Positions 4,476 to 8,701 of a DNA stretch of 64,000 nt are shown here, one piece after another. Source of the DNA: Cellulophaga sp. L1A9 (lineage in GTDB: Bacteria > Bacteroidota > Bacteroidia > Flavobacteriales > Flavobacteriaceae). Below the pieces are notes generated by a model. That model was not told the DNA's origin. It ran no database searches and was given only the letters and a program-made list of their open reading frames with translations. The DNA is taken from assembly GCF_009797025.1 (NCBI RefSeq), contig NZ_CP047027.1:2728001-2792000 (forward strand), given 5' to 3'. How positions within the stretch are numbered: position 1 is the first letter of the stretch; each line of letters begins with the position of its first letter. Made by a program: the position numbers and the translations under genes.

Positions 4476-6416
4476 ATGAGTAACAGTAACGAATTTGGAA
4501 GTATTTCCTTTGATTTGCCCAAAAATCAAAGTAATGTAATAAAAGTCATCGGGGTAGGTGGTGGCGGAAGTAACGCAATTAACCACATGTATTTGGCGGG
4601 AATAAATGGCGTTGATTTTATTATCTGTAATACAGATTCCCAAGCGCTTGATAATAGTACAGTACCCAACAAAATTCAATTAGGGGTTTCCTTAACTGAA
4701 GGTCTTGGTGCTGGTGCAAACCCAGAAGTTGGGGAGCAGTCTGCTATTGAGAGCATGGAAGAAATAAAAAATATGTTGGGTACCAACACTAAAATGGTTT
4801 TCATTACTGCAGGAATGGGCGGTGGTACTGGAACAGGTGCGGCACCAATGATAGCAAAGCAAGCTAAGGAACTGGATATCCTTACGGTTGGTATTGTTAC
4901 AATTCCTTTTCAGTTTGAAGGTCAAATGAGAACCAAGCAAGCACAAGCAGGGATTGAAAAGTTACGTAACAATGTAGATTCTCTAATCGTTATCAATAAT
5001 AACAAACTAAGAGAAGTTTATGGAAATTTAGGCTTTAAAGCAGGTTTCTCAAAAGCAGATGAAGTTTTAGCTACAGCTGCTAGAGGTATTGCAGAAGTTA
5101 TAACACATCACTATACACAAAACATCGATTTACGTGATGCTAAAACAGTACTATCTAATAGTGGTACAGCAATCATGGGATCTTCAACTTCATCAGGTTC
5201 AAACAGAGCAAATGAAGCTATTATGAGCGCCTTAGATTCGCCGTTATTGAATGATAATAAAATTTCTGGAGCTAAAAATGTGTTATTATTAATCGTTTCT
5301 GGTACTAAAGAAATCACTATTGATGAAATAGGGGAGATCAACGATCATATACAAAGCGAAGCAGGCCATAGTGCAAACATCATTATGGGTGTTGGTGAAG
5401 ATGAAACACTGGGGGAAGCTATTGCTGTAACCGTGATCGCTACGGGTTTTAATATAGACCAGCAAGATACTATTGTAAATACAGAATCTAAAAAAATAAT
5501 CCATACACTTGAAGATAGCCAAAAGGCAGAGCAATTGTTAATGGGTTCGGAGAATGTAGTCTTTCAGTTGGTCGAAGAAGAGGAAAAAGTAAAAGAGGTA
5601 GTAAAAGAAGAGCCTAAAATTGTAAAACATATTTTAGAGGAAGATAAGCCAGAGATGGATTTAATTCCGACTTCTAGCTATATCAAGAACTTTAATGTAT
5701 TCTACGATGAAGTAATAGCTGAAAATGTAGGGGATGATTTCATTATCGTAGATTCAAAAACACAGATAGATAATTTTGAAGTTATCGATCCGATTACTGT
5801 TTCTTCAGTAAAAATTGAAGACGATCAATTTCTTTTCAGTTTTGATGGCCCTGAGGCAGAAAAAATGAAAGAAAATAAGAAAGATAACGTCGTGATGTTT
5901 TCTTTGGATGATGAAGTAAGAGATATGGATGTAAAAGATCCTATCGAAGTTATTCCAGTAGTAGAATATAATAAAGATGGTGAAAAGCGCTATAGTCTTG
6001 ATGATTATATGGAGCTAGAGGGAAAACTTAATGAAGCGAAGTCTAAAGCAGAAAAAGTGGAGCCTAAAGTTTTAGAAGAAGAAATGCGTTTTGAGCAAAA
6101 AACGGTTGAGAAGGAAACTAAGCATGTAGAAGAAGCTGCTCATGTAGACCCTATGGATATGCCTTTAGAGGAACTTCTTAGAAGTAGATCTGAAGAAAGA
6201 AAACGTAAGTTAAAAGATTTCAATTACAAATTTCAAAACAATAATGCTAAGCATATTGATGAAATTGAAAAACACCCAGCGTACAAACGTCAGGGAGTTC
6301 ATTTGAATGAAGTAAATAGAGAAAACAAAATTTCTAGAACATCATTAAGTGAAGATAGTAATGATGATATTCAAATAAGAACTAACAATTCTTTTTTACA
6401 TGATAATGTAGATTAA
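4476..6416 (+). CDS. ftsZ: FtsZ, tubulin-like division GTPase with long C-terminal extension
   Basis: GTPase forming the cytokinetic ring. The globular part (about residues 15-335) has VGGGGSNAINHM, the tubulin signature GGGTGTG (residues 115-121) and the T7 loop region ending NIDLRDAKTVL. At 646 residues it is far longer than the roughly 385 residues of E. coli FtsZ: residues from about 345 on form an acidic, lysine/glutamate-rich linker of about 300 residues. Long FtsZ tails are usual in flavobacteria (family knowledge). No typical proteobacterial C-terminal FtsA-binding peptide is obvious. The gene is the last of the cluster and is followed by a terminator. Confidence 0.97.
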   Translation: MSNSNEFGSISFDLPKNQSNVIKVIGVGGGGSNAINHMYLAGINGVDFIICNTDSQALDNSTVPNKIQLGVSLTEGLGAGANPEVGEQSAIESMEEIKNMLGTNTKMVFITAGMGGGTGTGAAPMIAKQAKELDILTVGIVTIPFQFEGQMRTKQAQAGIEKLRNNVDSLIVINNNKLREVYGNLGFKAGFSKADEVLATAARGIAEVITHHYTQNIDLRDAKTVLSNSGTAIMGSSTSSGSNRANEAIMSALDSPLLNDNKISGAKNVLLLIVSGTKEITIDEIGEINDHIQSEAGHSANIIMGVGEDETLGEAIAVTVIATGFNIDQQDTIVNTESKKIIHTLEDSQKAEQLLMGSENVVFQLVEEEEKVKEVVKEEPKIVKHILEEDKPEMDLIPTSSYIKNFNVFYDEVIAENVGDDFIIVDSKTQIDNFEVIDPITVSSVKIEDDQFLFSFDGPEAEKMKENKKDNVVMFSLDDEVRDMDVKDPIEVIPVVEYNKDGEKRYSLDDYMELEGKLNEAKSKAEKVEPKVLEEEMRFEQKTVEKETKHVEEAAHVDPMDMPLEELLRSRSEERKRKLKDFNYKFQNNNAKHIDEIEKHPAYKRQGVHLNEVNRENKISRTSLSEDSNDDIQIRTNNSFLHDNVD

Positions 6417-6435
6417 ACATTGTTTTTAGAATAGT

Positions 6436-6476
6436 ATAAACCCAGAAATACACTGTATTTTTGGGTTTATTTTTTT
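6436..6476 (+). terminator. Rho-independent terminator after ftsZ
   Basis: Two-part hairpin directly downstream of ftsZ: outer arms ATAAACCCA (6436-6444) and TGGGTTTAT (6462-6470), inner arms AAATACA and TGTATTT, followed by a run of T. It closes the mur-fts operon. Confidence 0.85.
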
Positions 6477-6483
6477 ATCTTCG
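6476..6483 (+). promoter_or_regulatory. Weak -7-like element of the YqeY gene
   Basis: TATCTTCG resembles the Bacteroidota -7 consensus TAnnTTTG with one mismatch and lies 20 bases before the ATG at 6504, right after the ftsZ terminator. No clear -33 TTG at the right distance. Confidence 0.4.
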
Positions 6484-6503
6484 TGCCGCTAAAATAAAAT
6501 GTT

Positions 6504-6953
6504 ATGAGCTTACAGGATCAGGTAATGACCGAGATTAAAACAGCGATGAAAGCTAAAGATAAAGTAGCTTTAGAGTCGTTAAGAGCAATAAAATCTGCGT
6601 TGTTATTGATGCAAACAGATAATGGCTCAGGAGAAGCTATTACAGAAGAGGCAGAAATTCAGTTAATTCAGAAGTTGGTAAAGCAACGTAAGGATAGTGC
6701 TGCAATTTTTATAGAACAAGGTAGAGAAGACTTGGCGGAGCCGGAATTGGCACAAGTGGCAGTTATAGAAAAGTTCTTGCCAGAGCAATTAACAGAAGAA
6801 GAAATAGAGAAAGTTGTATTGCAAACTATTGAAACTACTGGTGCAGATGGTATGAAAGATATGGGTAAAGTTATGGGAATGGTATCTAAAGCGCTTGCAG
6901 GTCAAGCAGATGGTAAAACCATTTCTATGATTGTAAAAAAGAAATTGGCATAG
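6504..6953 (+). CDS. GatB/YqeY domain protein
   Basis: YqeY-family protein of 149 residues, the normal size. The family is related to the tail domain of the GatB subunit of Asp/Glu-tRNA amidotransferase and is thought to bind tRNA, but its role is not established. Family-like segments are LQDQVMTEIKTAMKAKDK at the N-terminus, LIQKLVKQRKDSAAIF in the middle and GMKDMGKVMGMVSKAL...DGKTISMIVKKKL at the C-terminus. It is separated from ftsZ by a terminator, so probably transcribed on its own. The tRNA-derived repeat array begins only 15 bases after its stop codon. Confidence 0.9.
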   Translation: MSLQDQVMTEIKTAMKAKDKVALESLRAIKSALLLMQTDNGSGEAITEEAEIQLIQKLVKQRKDSAAIFIEQGREDLAEPELAQVAVIEKFLPEQLTEEEIEKVVLQTIETTGADGMKDMGKVMGMVSKALAGQADGKTISMIVKKKLA

Positions 6954-6968
6954 TAAGAAAATAGTAAC

Positions 6969-6990
6969 GGCTGCGTAGTTCAACTGGATA
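6969..6990 (+). pseudogene. tRNA-Arg 5' fragment, copy 1
   Basis: Identical to the first 22 bases of the intact tRNA-Arg at 7566-7587 (starts GGCTGCGTAGTTC, ends CTGGATA): acceptor 5' strand, D-stem 5' strand and D-loop. The tRNA is interrupted here by a GC-rich palindrome, so it cannot fold into a tRNA. Confidence 0.9.
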
Positions 6991-7266
6991 CCCGCCTGCC
7001 GGCAGGCAGGGAATATCAAGTATAGGTATGAAGTACTATGTTTATGTTTTAGAGAGTGAGAAAGATAAAAGGTGGTATAAAGGACATACTGCAGATTTGG
7101 ATAAACGGATTAAGGAACATAATTCAGGAAAGACTAAATCAACTAAAGGTTTTGTTCCTTGGAGATTGGTTTATTTTGAACTATTTGAAACAAGGAAAGA
7201 AGCTATACAAAGAGAAAAGTATTTCAAAACCGGAAGTGGTAGAGAATTTTTAAAGAAAATAATAAC
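6969..7266 (+). repeat. tRNA-Arg/palindrome/GIY-YIG repeat unit 1 (298 bp, full length)
   Basis: First and longest unit of a three-unit tandem array. Order: 22-nt copy of the 5' end of tRNA-Arg (6969-6990), GC-rich palindromic insert (6991-7011; core GCCTGCCGGCAGGC is a perfect 14-bp palindrome), GAATATCA (the next tRNA bases, retained), short leader, intact GIY-YIG gene, and AAATAATAAC before the next tRNA fragment. Units 2 and 3 repeat this order with a deletion inside the nuclease gene. Confidence 0.9.
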
Positions 7267-7276
7267 GGCTGCGTAG
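7028..7276 (+). CDS. Small GIY-YIG nuclease domain protein inserted in tRNA repeat
   Basis: Single-domain GIY-YIG endonuclease of 82 residues. The divergent GIY/YIG pair is YVYVLES (residues 4-10) and WYKG (residues 17-20), followed by the conserved Arg in DLDKRIKEHNSG and the metal-binding Glu in AIQREKYFK, so the active site looks complete. The protein is close in size to the UPF0213/UvrC-like solitary GIY-YIG family. The last residues (TAA) and the stop codon TAG are supplied by the next tRNA-Arg fragment (7267-7276). Two downstream units contain deleted copies. A mobile or tRNA-targeting role is inference; the biological substrate is unknown. Confidence 0.85.
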   Translation: MKYYVYVLESEKDKRWYKGHTADLDKRIKEHNSGKTKSTKGFVPWRLVYFELFETRKEAIQREKYFKTGSGREFLKKIITAA

Positions 7277-7288
7277 TTCAACTGGATA
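7267..7288 (+). pseudogene. tRNA-Arg 5' fragment, copy 2
   Basis: Second exact 22-nt copy of the tRNA-Arg 5' end, again cut after CTGGATA by the palindrome. Its first ten bases double as the end of the intact GIY-YIG reading frame. Confidence 0.9.
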
Positions 7289-7325
7289 CCCGCCTGCCGG
7301 CAGGCAGGGAATATCAAGTATAGGT

Positions 7326-7403
7326 ATGAAGTATTATGTTTATGTTTTAGAAAGTGAAAAAGAGAAAAGTATTTCAAAACCGGAAGTGGTAGAGAATTTT
7401 TAA
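7326..7403 (+). pseudogene. GIY-YIG nuclease remnant A (148-bp internal deletion, frameshifted)
   Basis: Starts like the intact gene (MKYYVYVLESEK) and then jumps to the sequence that encodes QREKYFKTGSGREF, but in another frame, giving a 25-residue product ending PEVVENF. The missing 148 bp run from codon 13 to the REKYFK region and remove the catalytic Arg. The junction lies at a short similarity, AAAGAtAAAAG versus AAAGAgAAAAG, as expected for slippage or short-homology deletion. Confidence 0.85.
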
Positions 7404-7416
7404 AGAAAATAGTAAC

Positions 7417-7438
7417 GGCTGCGTAGTTCAACTGGATA
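7417..7438 (+). pseudogene. tRNA-Arg 5' fragment, copy 3
   Basis: Third exact 22-nt copy of the tRNA-Arg 5' end, interrupted at the same base by the palindrome. Confidence 0.9.
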
Positions 7439-7474
7439 CCCGCCTGCCGGCAGGCAGGGAATATCAAGTATAGT

Positions 7475-7552
7475 ATGAAGTACTATGTTTATGTTTTAGA
7501 AAGTGAAAAAGAGAAAAGTATTTCAAAACCGGAAGTGGTAGAGAATTTTTAA
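7475..7552 (+). pseudogene. GIY-YIG nuclease remnant B
   Basis: Same 25-codon frameshifted remnant as at 7326-7403, with the identical deletion junction, so the two arose from one deleted ancestor by tandem duplication. Its codons 3-4 read TAC TAT as in the intact gene, while remnant A has TAT TAT. Confidence 0.85.
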
Positions 7553-7565
7553 AGAAAATAGTAAC

Positions 7566-7639
7566 GGCTGCGTAGTTCAACTGGATAGAATATCAGATTT
7601 CGGCTCTGAGGGTTGGGGGTTCGAATCCCTTCGCGGTCA
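7566..7639 (+). tRNA. tRNA-Arg (anticodon UCG)
   Basis: Complete 74-nt cloverleaf: acceptor GGCTGCG/CGCGGTC (7566-7572 with 7632-7638, two G-U pairs), D-stem GTTC/GAAT, anticodon stem TCAGA/TCTGA around loop TTTCGGC (anticodon TCG at 7600-7602), five-base variable loop, T-stem GGGGG/CCCTT around TTCGAAT, discriminator A at 7639. CCA is not encoded. This is the only intact copy; the three upstream fragments stop within its D-loop. It is followed by a strong hairpin terminator. Confidence 0.93.
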
Positions 7640-7645
7640 CGAATA

Positions 7646-7705
7646 AATAAAAAGTCTCATAAAATATACAAGCTTGCTTGCGTATATTTTGTGAGACTTT
7701 TTATT
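7646..7705 (+). terminator. Terminator hairpin after tRNA-Arg
   Basis: Arms of 24 bases (7646-7669 and 7682-7705) pair with a single A/G difference that becomes a G-U pair in RNA; 12-base loop with CTTG repeats. A duplicated right arm occurs again about 105 bp downstream. Confidence 0.8.
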
Positions 7706-7738
7706 TTCAAAGCGGAGCTTTAAGGGATCAACGCAGTT
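7677..7738 (+). repeat. 62-bp direct repeat, copy 1 (includes terminator right arm)
   Basis: Begins CTTGCGTATATTTT and ends GATCAACGCAGTT; repeats with few differences at 7782-7843, offset exactly 105 bp. Confidence 0.8.
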
Positions 7739-7781
7739 CATCCTTTATTCGTGAAAATGTTGAATATGGTTTTAATGTTTA

Positions 7782-7843
7782 CTTGCGTATATTTTATGAG
7801 ACTTTTTATTTTCAAAGCGGAGCTTTGATGGATCAACGCAGTT
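7782..7843 (+). repeat. 62-bp direct repeat, copy 2
   Basis: Second copy of the repeat at 7677-7738. It carries only the right arm of the terminator hairpin. Its version of the arm (TATTTTATGAG) is the exact complement of the left arm at 7646-7669, while copy 1 has one substitution. Confidence 0.8.
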
Positions 7844-7948
7844 TGTTTTTTAGTTTACATTATTAATTATTTAGACGTATTATTCTCAACATCAGCATAA
7901 ATATAGCTATCTTAAGTTCTTAATGATAGGAAATTTTATATGAAATAG

Positions 7949-8701
7949 ATGTTTAGAGGGATGCATTTTTTTAAGGATAGTATAAAACTGCTTACTGTAT
8001 TTATAGCCTTCTTTTGTTCTATAATTGTTGCTTCTCAAGAAATACCACATTTAGAGACAATATTAAATCAGCTAGAATTAGACTTGTCTGAATGTAAAAC
8101 AGATCTAATTGTAGCTAAGGTAAAGCCTGATAATTCAGAAGAAACTATCGTTGTTATACCAGAAATTGTCCAAGAAGATGAGGATTATTTTGAGCTTAAT
8201 AGCCATATTTTAATTATAGAAACTAATACAGGGAAAATAAAATCCAGATATTTTGAAGGTTCATTAACGAACGAGTGGTATTCAGATGCAGTTAGATTGG
8301 CAGAAATAAAGATTGATACGGCTCCTTATCTTCTTTCAGAAGACACTAGGGCATTCGGTATCCGGGTTTATTATTACAATAACTCACATCCGAATCCGTA
8401 CAGTCATGAAACAATTTCGTTATATTTTGATGAAAATAATACCCTAAAACAGGTTTTGAAAAATTTTGAAATGATGAGCTATGGTGGCGAAGTGAACTCA
8501 GAATGCGAAGCAGACCTAAGTGGCGTTGAAAAAGTGTTAATCCTTAAGGAAACAAAAACAAATGGCTATTTTGATATTTTAGTAAAAAGCACTGTGAAAA
8601 CAACAACTAGAAAAGAAGCTTCAAATGGTGATTGCATTGAAGAAAAAAAGATTACAAATCTAGATCAAGTATTAAAGTTTAAAAACGGTAAATACCAATG
8701 A
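7949..8701 (+). CDS. Putative secreted protein of unknown function
   Basis: 250 residues. An N-terminal hydrophobic stretch (about residues 13-30, KLLTVFIAFFCSIIVASQ) ending near ASQ looks like a signal peptide; the rest is hydrophilic and acidic without a recognised motif. A second ATG at 7961 would give a shorter start with the same signal sequence. Two cysteines (in SECKTDL and NSECEADL) could form a disulfide. It stands alone between the tRNA locus and a convergent permease gene. I do not recognise the family. Confidence 0.7.
   Translation: MFRGMHFFKDSIKLLTVFIAFFCSIIVASQEIPHLETILNQLELDLSECKTDLIVAKVKPDNSEETIVVIPEIVQEDEDYFELNSHILIIETNTGKIKSRYFEGSLTNEWYSDAVRLAEIKIDTAPYLLSEDTRAFGIRVYYYNNSHPNPYSHETISLYFDENNTLKQVLKNFEMMSYGGEVNSECEADLSGVEKVLILKETKTNGYFDILVKSTVKTTTRKEASNGDCIEEKKITNLDQVLKFKNGKYQ

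Follow-up and report, generated by a model that had tools for sequence, protein, structure and literature searches.

The question raised by the locus studied here is why an intact tRNA-Arg(UCG) gene should be preceded by three broken copies of itself, all interrupted by the same palindrome and the first of them followed by a gene for a small GIY-YIG nuclease. The locus lies on the chromosome of Cellulophaga sp. L1A9 (a complete genome of 5.07 Mb), in a stretch of 64 000 nucleotides (NZ_CP047027.1, positions 2 728 001 to 2 792 000) that we call the window. On the strength of sequence comparisons, we consider it rather probable that a minimal homing element of tRNA genes, repeated in a short run, makes up the array. 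Directly visible are, in this order, a pseudo-tRNA interrupted by a palindrome, a GIY-YIG gene of a single domain and the intact gene of the same tRNA. This plan, or its mirror image with the tRNA first, recurs at many Bacteroidota tRNA genes; element-free sites exist, and different nuclease lineages occur at one and the same tRNA. The best reading would be that these proteins are free-standing homing endonucleases of tRNA genes, which leave a working tRNA behind, and that the unit is a very small mobile genetic element of an apparently undescribed kind.

The tRNA-Arg(UCG) array

The array stands downstream of ftsA, ftsZ and yqeY. Its features are listed below, all on the + strand; tRNA positions, here and throughout, are counted along each gene and are not canonical numbers.

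6504..6953, +, yqeY-like gene, conserved upstream neighbour of the target tRNA (PF09424, E 5e-44; adjoins tRNA-Arg(TCG) in 18/18 Cellulophaga)
6969..6990, +, pseudo-tRNA copy 1, tRNA-Arg nt 1-22 (identical to intact tRNA nt 1-22)
6991..7010, +, palindrome 1, at tRNA position 22|23 (left edge nt 22 also in 29/72 unique junctions of 5′-type loci elsewhere)
7011..7018, +, pseudo-tRNA copy 1, nt 23-30 (GAATATCA, as in intact tRNA)
7028..7276, +, GIY-YIG nuclease gene, 82 aa, complete, stop TAG in next tRNA copy (PF01541, E 1.4e-17)
7267..7288, +, pseudo-tRNA copy 2, nt 1-22 (match to intact tRNA)
7289..7308, +, palindrome 2
7309..7316, +, pseudo-tRNA copy 2, nt 23-30 (match to intact tRNA)
7326..7403, +, unit-2 GIY-YIG remnant, 25 aa, internal deletion
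7417..7438, +, pseudo-tRNA copy 3, nt 1-22 (match to intact tRNA)
7439..7458, +, palindrome 3
7459..7466, +, pseudo-tRNA copy 3, nt 23-30 (match to intact tRNA)
7475..7552, +, unit-3 GIY-YIG remnant, 25 aa
7566..7640, +, intact tRNA-Arg(UCG), working target (ARAGORN; Rfam RF00005, 59 bits; same as the empty-site tRNA of G005, G010, G001 and G007, Cellulophaga genomes introduced below)

ARAGORN, run on the window, gives one intact tRNA-Arg(tcg), at 7566-7640, and the three tandem pseudo-copies (starts 6969, 7267 and 7417) all lie 5′ of it. Each consists of tRNA nt 1-22, a 20-nt palindrome that is the same in every copy (CCCGCCTGCCGGCAGGCAGG), and tRNA nt 23-30. Since the tRNA sequence resumes in this way, the palindrome lies inside a 30-nt pseudo-copy, at position 22|23 of the D-loop. 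Its 12-nt core is found three times in the window; shuffles, with one mismatch allowed, give an expectation of 0.02. Only in unit 1 (298 nt) is the GIY-YIG gene complete (82 aa); its stop codon TAG (7274-7276) coincides with nt 8-10 of the following tRNA copy. Units 2 and 3 (150 and 149 nt) have lost most of the gene by internal deletion. The gene is not nested in another open reading frame (ORF) of the window list, and nothing in that list between 6969 and 7640, where the units measure 150-298 nt, is long enough for an integrase. From 6400 to 8200 only the tRNA exceeds its Rfam gathering score (search at E≤1), and a group I intron at this locus was rejected on this ground.

A first-pass annotation had described three tandem units followed by a complete tRNA, with no integrase and with a working tRNA left by insertion. 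This much stands, the intact tRNA being seen directly beside its broken copies, and so does the order of tRNA 5′ part and palindrome. The same annotation had given every unit a GIY-YIG gene and a length of about 300 bp, which is true of unit 1 only; it had let the tRNA part end at nt 22, and it had placed the array at 6969..7639, where the start is right and the end should read 7640.

The region 3′ of the tRNA offers two side observations. Positions 7649-7852 are made of two 99-nt direct copies, 80% alike, and a CAAAGCGGAGCTTTG-like palindrome stands 3′ of the tRNA terminator and recurs in other Cellulophaga and in other genera (genomes G411 and G036).

Linkage of the nuclease family to tRNA genes

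A profile (A1) of 14 rows, among them the window protein and mostly proteins already tRNA-linked, matches 254 of 397 genomes of the family at E≤1e-14. The loci that we compared form three sets: a family set (the first 100 of at least 109 top-ranked clusters, besides loci fetched earlier), a set of named loci and the loci of a phylum search. They overlap in part, with genomes G036, G078, G109, G160 and G012 in the first two, and G000, G214, G388, G197, G171, G259 and G200 recurring in the third. At 93 of the 100 family loci ARAGORN places a tRNA within 400 bp of the GIY-YIG gene, on the same strand in 93/93, a rate that holds for the top-scoring class only, since top-ranked clusters alone were fetched; tRNA pieces are visible by eye in 5 of the 7 unlinked loci. 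The isotypes concerned are Arg, Ala, Met, Pro, Val, Asp, Ser, Leu and His. Linkage over the same distance is found at 75 of the 80 named loci, in four phyla and again on one strand (75/75); these loci span six Bacteroidota classes, Ignavibacteriota, Fidelibacterota and one Collierbacteria contig. The phylum search adds 27/30 (≤400 bp, same strand).

Linkage was also counted by profile score. At 90 bits or more, 133 of 163 domains lie within 400 bp of a tRNA (some loci being counted twice, and inner array members lying farther off); the figures are 2/4 at 75-90 bits, 2/13 at 60-75 bits and 0/1 at 30-45 bits. UPF0213-type paralogues, which score 45-60 bits, are never that close (0 of 15 domains, from 13 distinct genes). 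The first-pass annotation had held that GIY-YIG relatives unconnected with tRNA genes or the palindrome would refute its reading; in the family and named sets the subfamily proves, on the contrary, to be tRNA-linked.

A phage or plasmid vector was considered and rejected: with the window protein alone as query, the search gave only distant relatives, namely 18 phage records, none of which reaches 60% identity, and 4 from plasmids, the best at 48.5% (a yazA paralogue).

Two outlying loci deserve mention on their own account. In the Candidatus Collierbacteria contig (locus L295) a close GIY-YIG relative (59% identity) stands directly at tRNA-Asn, and the pseudo-copy there is not significant; this copy could reflect transfer to another phylum or contamination of the assembly. 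In G024 (L061:1103-2262) two GIY-YIG genes lie about 400 and 800 bp downstream of the tmRNA gene, with repeats that begin at the tmRNA end, and the targets of the nucleases may thus include tmRNA.

Anatomy of the units

We call a locus 5′-type when the gene is upstream of the intact tRNA and 3′-type when it is downstream; the linked family loci divide into 68/93 and 25/93, respectively. A pseudo-tRNA across the nuclease gene was detected at 82/88 family and 68/74 named loci (p≤0.01, 100 shuffles); the 70-bit floor of the pseudo-copy tests leaves 90 family loci instead of 93, and the comparison of sides (88) drops loci with short flanks as well. Ninety unique insert junctions could be mapped, 72 of them 5′-type. 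Of these 72, 47 lie in the D-loop (the left edge being nt 22 in 29 cases and nt 21 in 8), the site that the first-pass annotation had singled out, and 15 in the 5′ strand of the D-stem. Among the 18 junctions of 3′-type, 14 are in the T-, anticodon or D-loop. The inserts fold better than their shuffles (mean -11.3 versus -5.8 kcal/mol; 53/90 at p≤0.02 and 72/90 at p≤0.1).

When 98 units of 5′-type were examined, 75 matched the tRNA left of nt 22; in 38 of these the insert is placed exactly at 22|23 and the tRNA then resumes, and in 18 it does not resume within the reach of the test. The 29 distinct inserts at 22|23 all start with CCC or CCT and end with AGG or GGG, and 16 are surpassed in stability by at most one of 100 shuffles. 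At some loci, L227 for example, the pseudo-copy spans the whole tRNA and is broken by an insert alone. The stop codon of the nuclease gene lies inside the tRNA in 74 of 104 loci of 5′-type, 62 times at nt 8-10 or 21-23, and the repeat starts, by eye, at about tRNA nt 1 in L056-L059 and L063. At eight loci Rfam (gathering scores) gives one tRNA each, plus one Flavo-1 RNA in L227, so the pseudo-copies are not recognised by Rfam. A promoter-like TAnnTTTG is found within 45 nt upstream of the pseudo-copy in 14/45 cases, of the intact tRNA in 3/45 and of the GIY-YIG start in 0/45.

Arrays of 2-5 complete copies occur at 22/97 family loci, and two or more complete copies at 6/77 named loci. In the family arrays, neighbouring copies share 95-100% identity in 28 of 34 cases, and the spacing is 300-380 nt in 30 of 34. 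At L311, L321 and L332, near tRNA-Met or between tRNA-Leu and tRNA-Gly, there are apparent tRNA pieces broken by the same palindrome, possibly relics of lost elements.

Empty and filled sites at one tRNA gene

Genomes are numbered from G000, that of the window; G001, G005, G007, G009, G010, G012, G013 and G016 are Cellulophaga, and G251 and G411 belong to a second genus. In all 18 Cellulophaga genomes searched, tRNA-Arg(TCG) follows yqeY. The site between them is empty in 14 (the gap being 9 to 106 nt in 13, and in G009 23 nt, stop codon included) and holds an element or a remnant in G000, G013, G016 and G012. Full and deletion units are present in G000 and G013, a single deletion unit in G016 and another arrangement in G012. 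The intact tRNA is identical in filled G000, G013 and G016 and in empty G005, G010, G001 and G007.

By YqeY, G005 is the closest to G016 of the genomes compared (dS 0.17). Since this near relative carries a remnant, the emptiness of G005 may reflect a precise loss rather than a site never filled, and such a loss would go through the repeated 5′ part of the tRNA. Between G000 and G013, dS is 0.36 for the GIY-YIG gene and 0.46 for yqeY; the closeness of the two values indicates that the Cellulophaga array was inherited and not freshly moved.

The same locus in the second genus carries three units in G251 and is empty in G411. The leader 5′ of the G251 pseudo-copy resembles that of the tRNA at the empty G411 site. 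The original leader has thus kept its place in front of the pseudo-copy, with the unit located between this leader and the working tRNA. A further within-genus comparison of this kind (G214/G388) gave no syntenic match. The first-pass annotation had reasoned that sharing of the exact array by all close relatives would mean an old duplication; neither Cellulophaga nor the second genus shows such sharing.

The nucleases found at this tRNA also differ. In G012 the gene is downstream of the tRNA, pseudo-tRNAs with palindromes in the D-loop and the anticodon arm stand both before the tRNA and after the gene, and the protein, 63% identical to that of the window, belongs to a separate 3′-type group in the tree. 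The G251 protein is 46% identical to the window's, though FtsA is 89% identical. With distinct lineages at one tRNA (5′-type in G000 and G013, 3′-type in G012, and that of G251), a single old duplication is insufficient.

We also noted GIY-YIG genes at tRNA-Phe. In G000 (contig C1, about 1210246-1210765; L005:1341-1860) a decayed one, with TGA and TAA inside, comes after tRNA-Phe, and behind it the 3′ end of tRNA-Phe and its terminator are partly repeated; in G002 (L048) such a gene lies 52 bp from tRNA-Phe.

The nuclease and its descent

The window protein matches PF01541 and is 90% identical to a protein of Cellulophaga algicola DSM 14237; its AlphaFold model is a single GIY-YIG domain with a mean pLDDT of 92.7. 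In the alignments R27 and E63 are invariant in profiles A1 and A3, and Y6 and Y17 are invariant in A3 and conserved at 90% or more in A1. The Arg and Glu we take, from I-TevI, to be the catalytic residues. By these comparisons the endonuclease domain is intact, with its catalytic residues kept. The gene is under purifying selection: dN/dS is 0.12 between the window gene and its G013 homologue, and the median over 16 pairs with finite dS is also 0.12 (below 0.5 in 15/16), in a set where the L027 and L056 rows are one gene, so that 17 of 18 pairs are independent.

In a tree of 161 domains (a quick tree, taken without branch supports) the tRNA label changes 36 times versus a mean of 116 and a minimum of 110 in 30 shuffles, the genus label 112 times versus a mean of 145, and the 5′/3′ type 13 times versus 39.5. 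Nuclease clades thus follow the tRNA more than the host genus.

A proposed homing model

At this point we may propose the following scheme. The nuclease would cut a conserved loop of its own target tRNA gene, presumably the D-loop near 22|23 for 5′-type elements and the T-loop, anticodon loop or D-loop for 3′-type elements. An element-bearing copy would serve as the template for repair of the break, the tRNA part of its pseudo-copy and the intact tRNA acting as the two homology arms, so that the whole unit would be copied in and a working tRNA would remain. The palindrome, at the presumed cut site of the pseudo-copy, might block re-cutting, which is a guess. Since the working tRNA stays a target, re-cutting could make tandem arrays grow and shrink and could excise a unit precisely; unequal recombination between the tRNA repeats is another possible driver of the arrays. 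The nuclease gene is probably read from the tRNA's own promoter. Such a model would explain why the elements are directly oriented, why the repeat begins near tRNA nt 1, why the stop codon falls in the tRNA, why some sites are empty, why clades are isotype-specific and why tandem arrays occur. The suggestion, made from the window alone, of a nuclease-driven minimal element that targets tRNAs is thus supported by linkage (93/100 and 75/80), empty sites and the presence of two lineages at one tRNA.

Several points weigh against the homing model. The working tRNA is the same as the tRNA of empty sites, which leaves unexplained how a carrier escapes cutting itself. Beyond the palindrome the tRNA sequence of the pseudo-copy resumes, as would not be expected of a simple insertion at 22|23, and 19 of the 75 units mentioned above run past 22|23 without an insert and break elsewhere or nowhere. 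The control side of the tRNA is not empty: pseudo-tRNAs are found on the side opposite the gene at 18/88 family and 25/74 named loci, some of these loci having additional tRNAs, or pseudo-copies to either side, as in G012. In the window the leader of about 12 nt before each tRNA copy is also alike, as plain tandem duplication would yield too. The AlphaFold model of the 82-aa protein has no added DNA-binding domain, and the nearest solved structures by sequence and fold are UPF0213 BH0048 and the structure-specific Slx1. Finally, in 18 of 19 chosen pairs the GIY-YIG proteins are less alike than the FtsA proteins, which indicates mostly vertical or old descent. In the other pair, G388 (Arg-TCG) and G197 (Arg-ACG), which belong to different genera, the GIY-YIG proteins are 84% and the FtsA proteins 77% identical; this suggests a transfer with a change of target, the sole such case of the 19.

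Alternative explanations

One alternative concerns the palindromes. RAYT transposases are thought to disperse REP sequences, and the GIY-YIG nuclease could likewise act on hairpins and disperse GC palindromes, with pseudo-tRNAs as preferred landing or launching sites. In the genome of Cellulophaga sp. L1A9, CCTGCCGGCAGG (a string not found in the literature searched) has 21 copies versus 0 for the reversed control, and 18 of them are outside the array locus. Flanks were viewed for 12 of these 18 (L009-L013 and L017-L023), and 11 are in two repeated contexts (four in one, seven in another, one copy being alone), so that few independent sites are represented. More broadly, CCTGCCN{2,24}GGCAGG is present in 283 of the 397 family genomes (reversed control, 0 to 7 per genome). 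Its median count is 8 in the 140 genomes with a strong tRNA-type GIY-YIG gene and 1 in the 257 others; among 51 discordant pairs of one genus, the genome with the gene has more palindromes in 33, fewer in 12 and as many in 6. These sets and pairs were compiled by hand from profile and pattern matches, the counts include the palindromes of the GIY-YIG loci themselves, and phylogeny is corrected at genus level only.

The common ends of the 29 distinct inserts and the place of structure-specific Slx1 nucleases among the nearest folds also fit such a system. However, six genomes outside the strong set have at least 20 palindromes, and the flanks of 39 dispersed copies have no clear extra pairing (mean -9.8, versus -9.0 for shuffles and -8.4 at random places), so a genome-wide preference of the palindrome for hairpin loops is unsupported at these sites. 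Of 36 loci fetched for dispersed palindromes, 6 have a tRNA in the stretch. We regard a purely palindrome-moving system as unlikely. The two ideas could be combined, in that a structure-recognising GIY-YIG nuclease would invade tRNA loops and also spread the GC palindromes of Bacteroidota, giving phylum-wide elements of less than 400 nt; this would be a system akin to REP, driven by a nuclease of the homing type and marked by the palindrome-broken pseudo-tRNA, and we hold it to be unlikely as well.

Another possibility is a toxin and its antidote: a nuclease specific for one tRNA isotype would be checked by the hairpin-bearing pseudo-tRNA transcript, acting as an RNA decoy. The isotype-specific clades, the purifying selection and the pseudo-tRNA repeats upstream of the gene in 5′-type loci would suit it, RNA repeats upstream of a toxin gene being the layout of type III toxin-antitoxin systems. 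But the pseudo-tRNA is downstream in 3′-type loci (25/93), the nearest solved relatives of known activity, Slx1 and I-TevI, act on DNA, and the decoy idea predicts neither the working tRNA at the gene, nor the stop codon inside the tRNA, nor clean empty sites; it thus appears quite improbable. We give still less credit to a domesticated gene, whose product would serve the host (for instance in maintenance of tRNA operons or DNA repair) with the array as a by-product: low dN/dS and mostly vertical descent agree with it, but the gene is patchy (4/18 Cellulophaga, one with a deletion unit alone), is found at many different tRNAs and has decayed copies. As for a single ancient insertion that then duplicated in tandem without any mobility, which the first-pass annotation had kept as its alternative, the locus common to G000, G013 and G016, the similar dS values and the alike leaders speak for it, but with different lineages at one tRNA (two of them within one genus) and the same plan at many isotypes in several phyla, it is hardly credible.

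Relation to known systems

Free-standing homing endonuclease genes have a domain with its catalytic residues, no intron or intein, and element-free alleles, all of which we find here. GIY-YIG enzymes of the SegB type have a catalytic domain and a C-terminal DNA-binding part; the latter region has no equivalent in the 82-aa single-domain protein. SegB itself, a free-standing GIY-YIG endonuclease of T-even phages whose gene adjoins tRNA genes, cleaves inside tRNA genes, and segB and tRNA-Tyr are amplified in tandem only when it is active, according to the available part of the report (PMC13096335). Our comparison shows its motif there, RAWTSGAAC, to be the reverse complement of GTTCSAWTY, a T-arm sequence, and the T-arm is where some 3′-type pseudo-copies are broken (6/18 junctions). 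SegB is phage-borne, and a palindrome-broken pseudo-tRNA is not described for it in that part of the report (PMC13096335), whereas the elements described here are chromosomal, encode a single domain of about 80 aa and have clades that follow the tRNA isotype.

A second parallel is the mORF of fungal mitochondria. In the available part of the account (PMC3630166), an endonuclease gene in an essential gene brings a replacement for the end of that gene (the C-terminus); the hybrid gene is expressed, the displaced native end is left behind, and one of four cases is GIY-YIG. The likeness is that the target has a working and a displaced copy, one to either side (82/88 and 68/74 loci here). The mORFs, as described there, concern protein genes, mitochondria and a foreign, divergent end (PMC3630166), whereas here the target is a bacterial tRNA and, in Cellulophaga, the working tRNA is that of the empty sites, which rules out a chimeric tRNA. 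The tRNA elements are therefore comparable to SegB and to fungal mORFs, but chromosomal and minimal.

Other systems are more distant. The integrative elements targeted to tRNA genes by tyrosine recombinases insert in these genes and restore them, but units of 150-300 nt have no room for an integrase. REP/RAYT systems share dispersed GC palindromes and a small nuclease with the elements described here; the difference is that the unit gene is GIY-YIG and not an HUH (Y1) transposase, and that linkage to the tRNA is target-specific. UPF0213/YhbQ and Slx1 have the same domain by sequence and fold, but the UPF0213-like paralogues of these genomes are not tRNA-linked, as stated above. Chromosomal tRNA-GIY-YIG elements of bacteria were not found in the literature searched (titles and abstract openings, with preprints and most subscription papers outside it).

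What the element would mean

If the homing reading is correct, many Bacteroidota harbour a mobile element that barely exceeds its nuclease gene in size and that targets very conserved and essential genes, those of tRNAs, while keeping a working copy alongside. It would be the bacterial-chromosome counterpart of fungal mORFs and phage SegB. It would also offer a stock of short GIY-YIG nucleases already sorted by tRNA target. The small GIY-YIG proteins and the broken tRNA-like fragments that occur next to tRNAs would have an explanation, and the origin of the GC palindromes of Bacteroidota would become testable.

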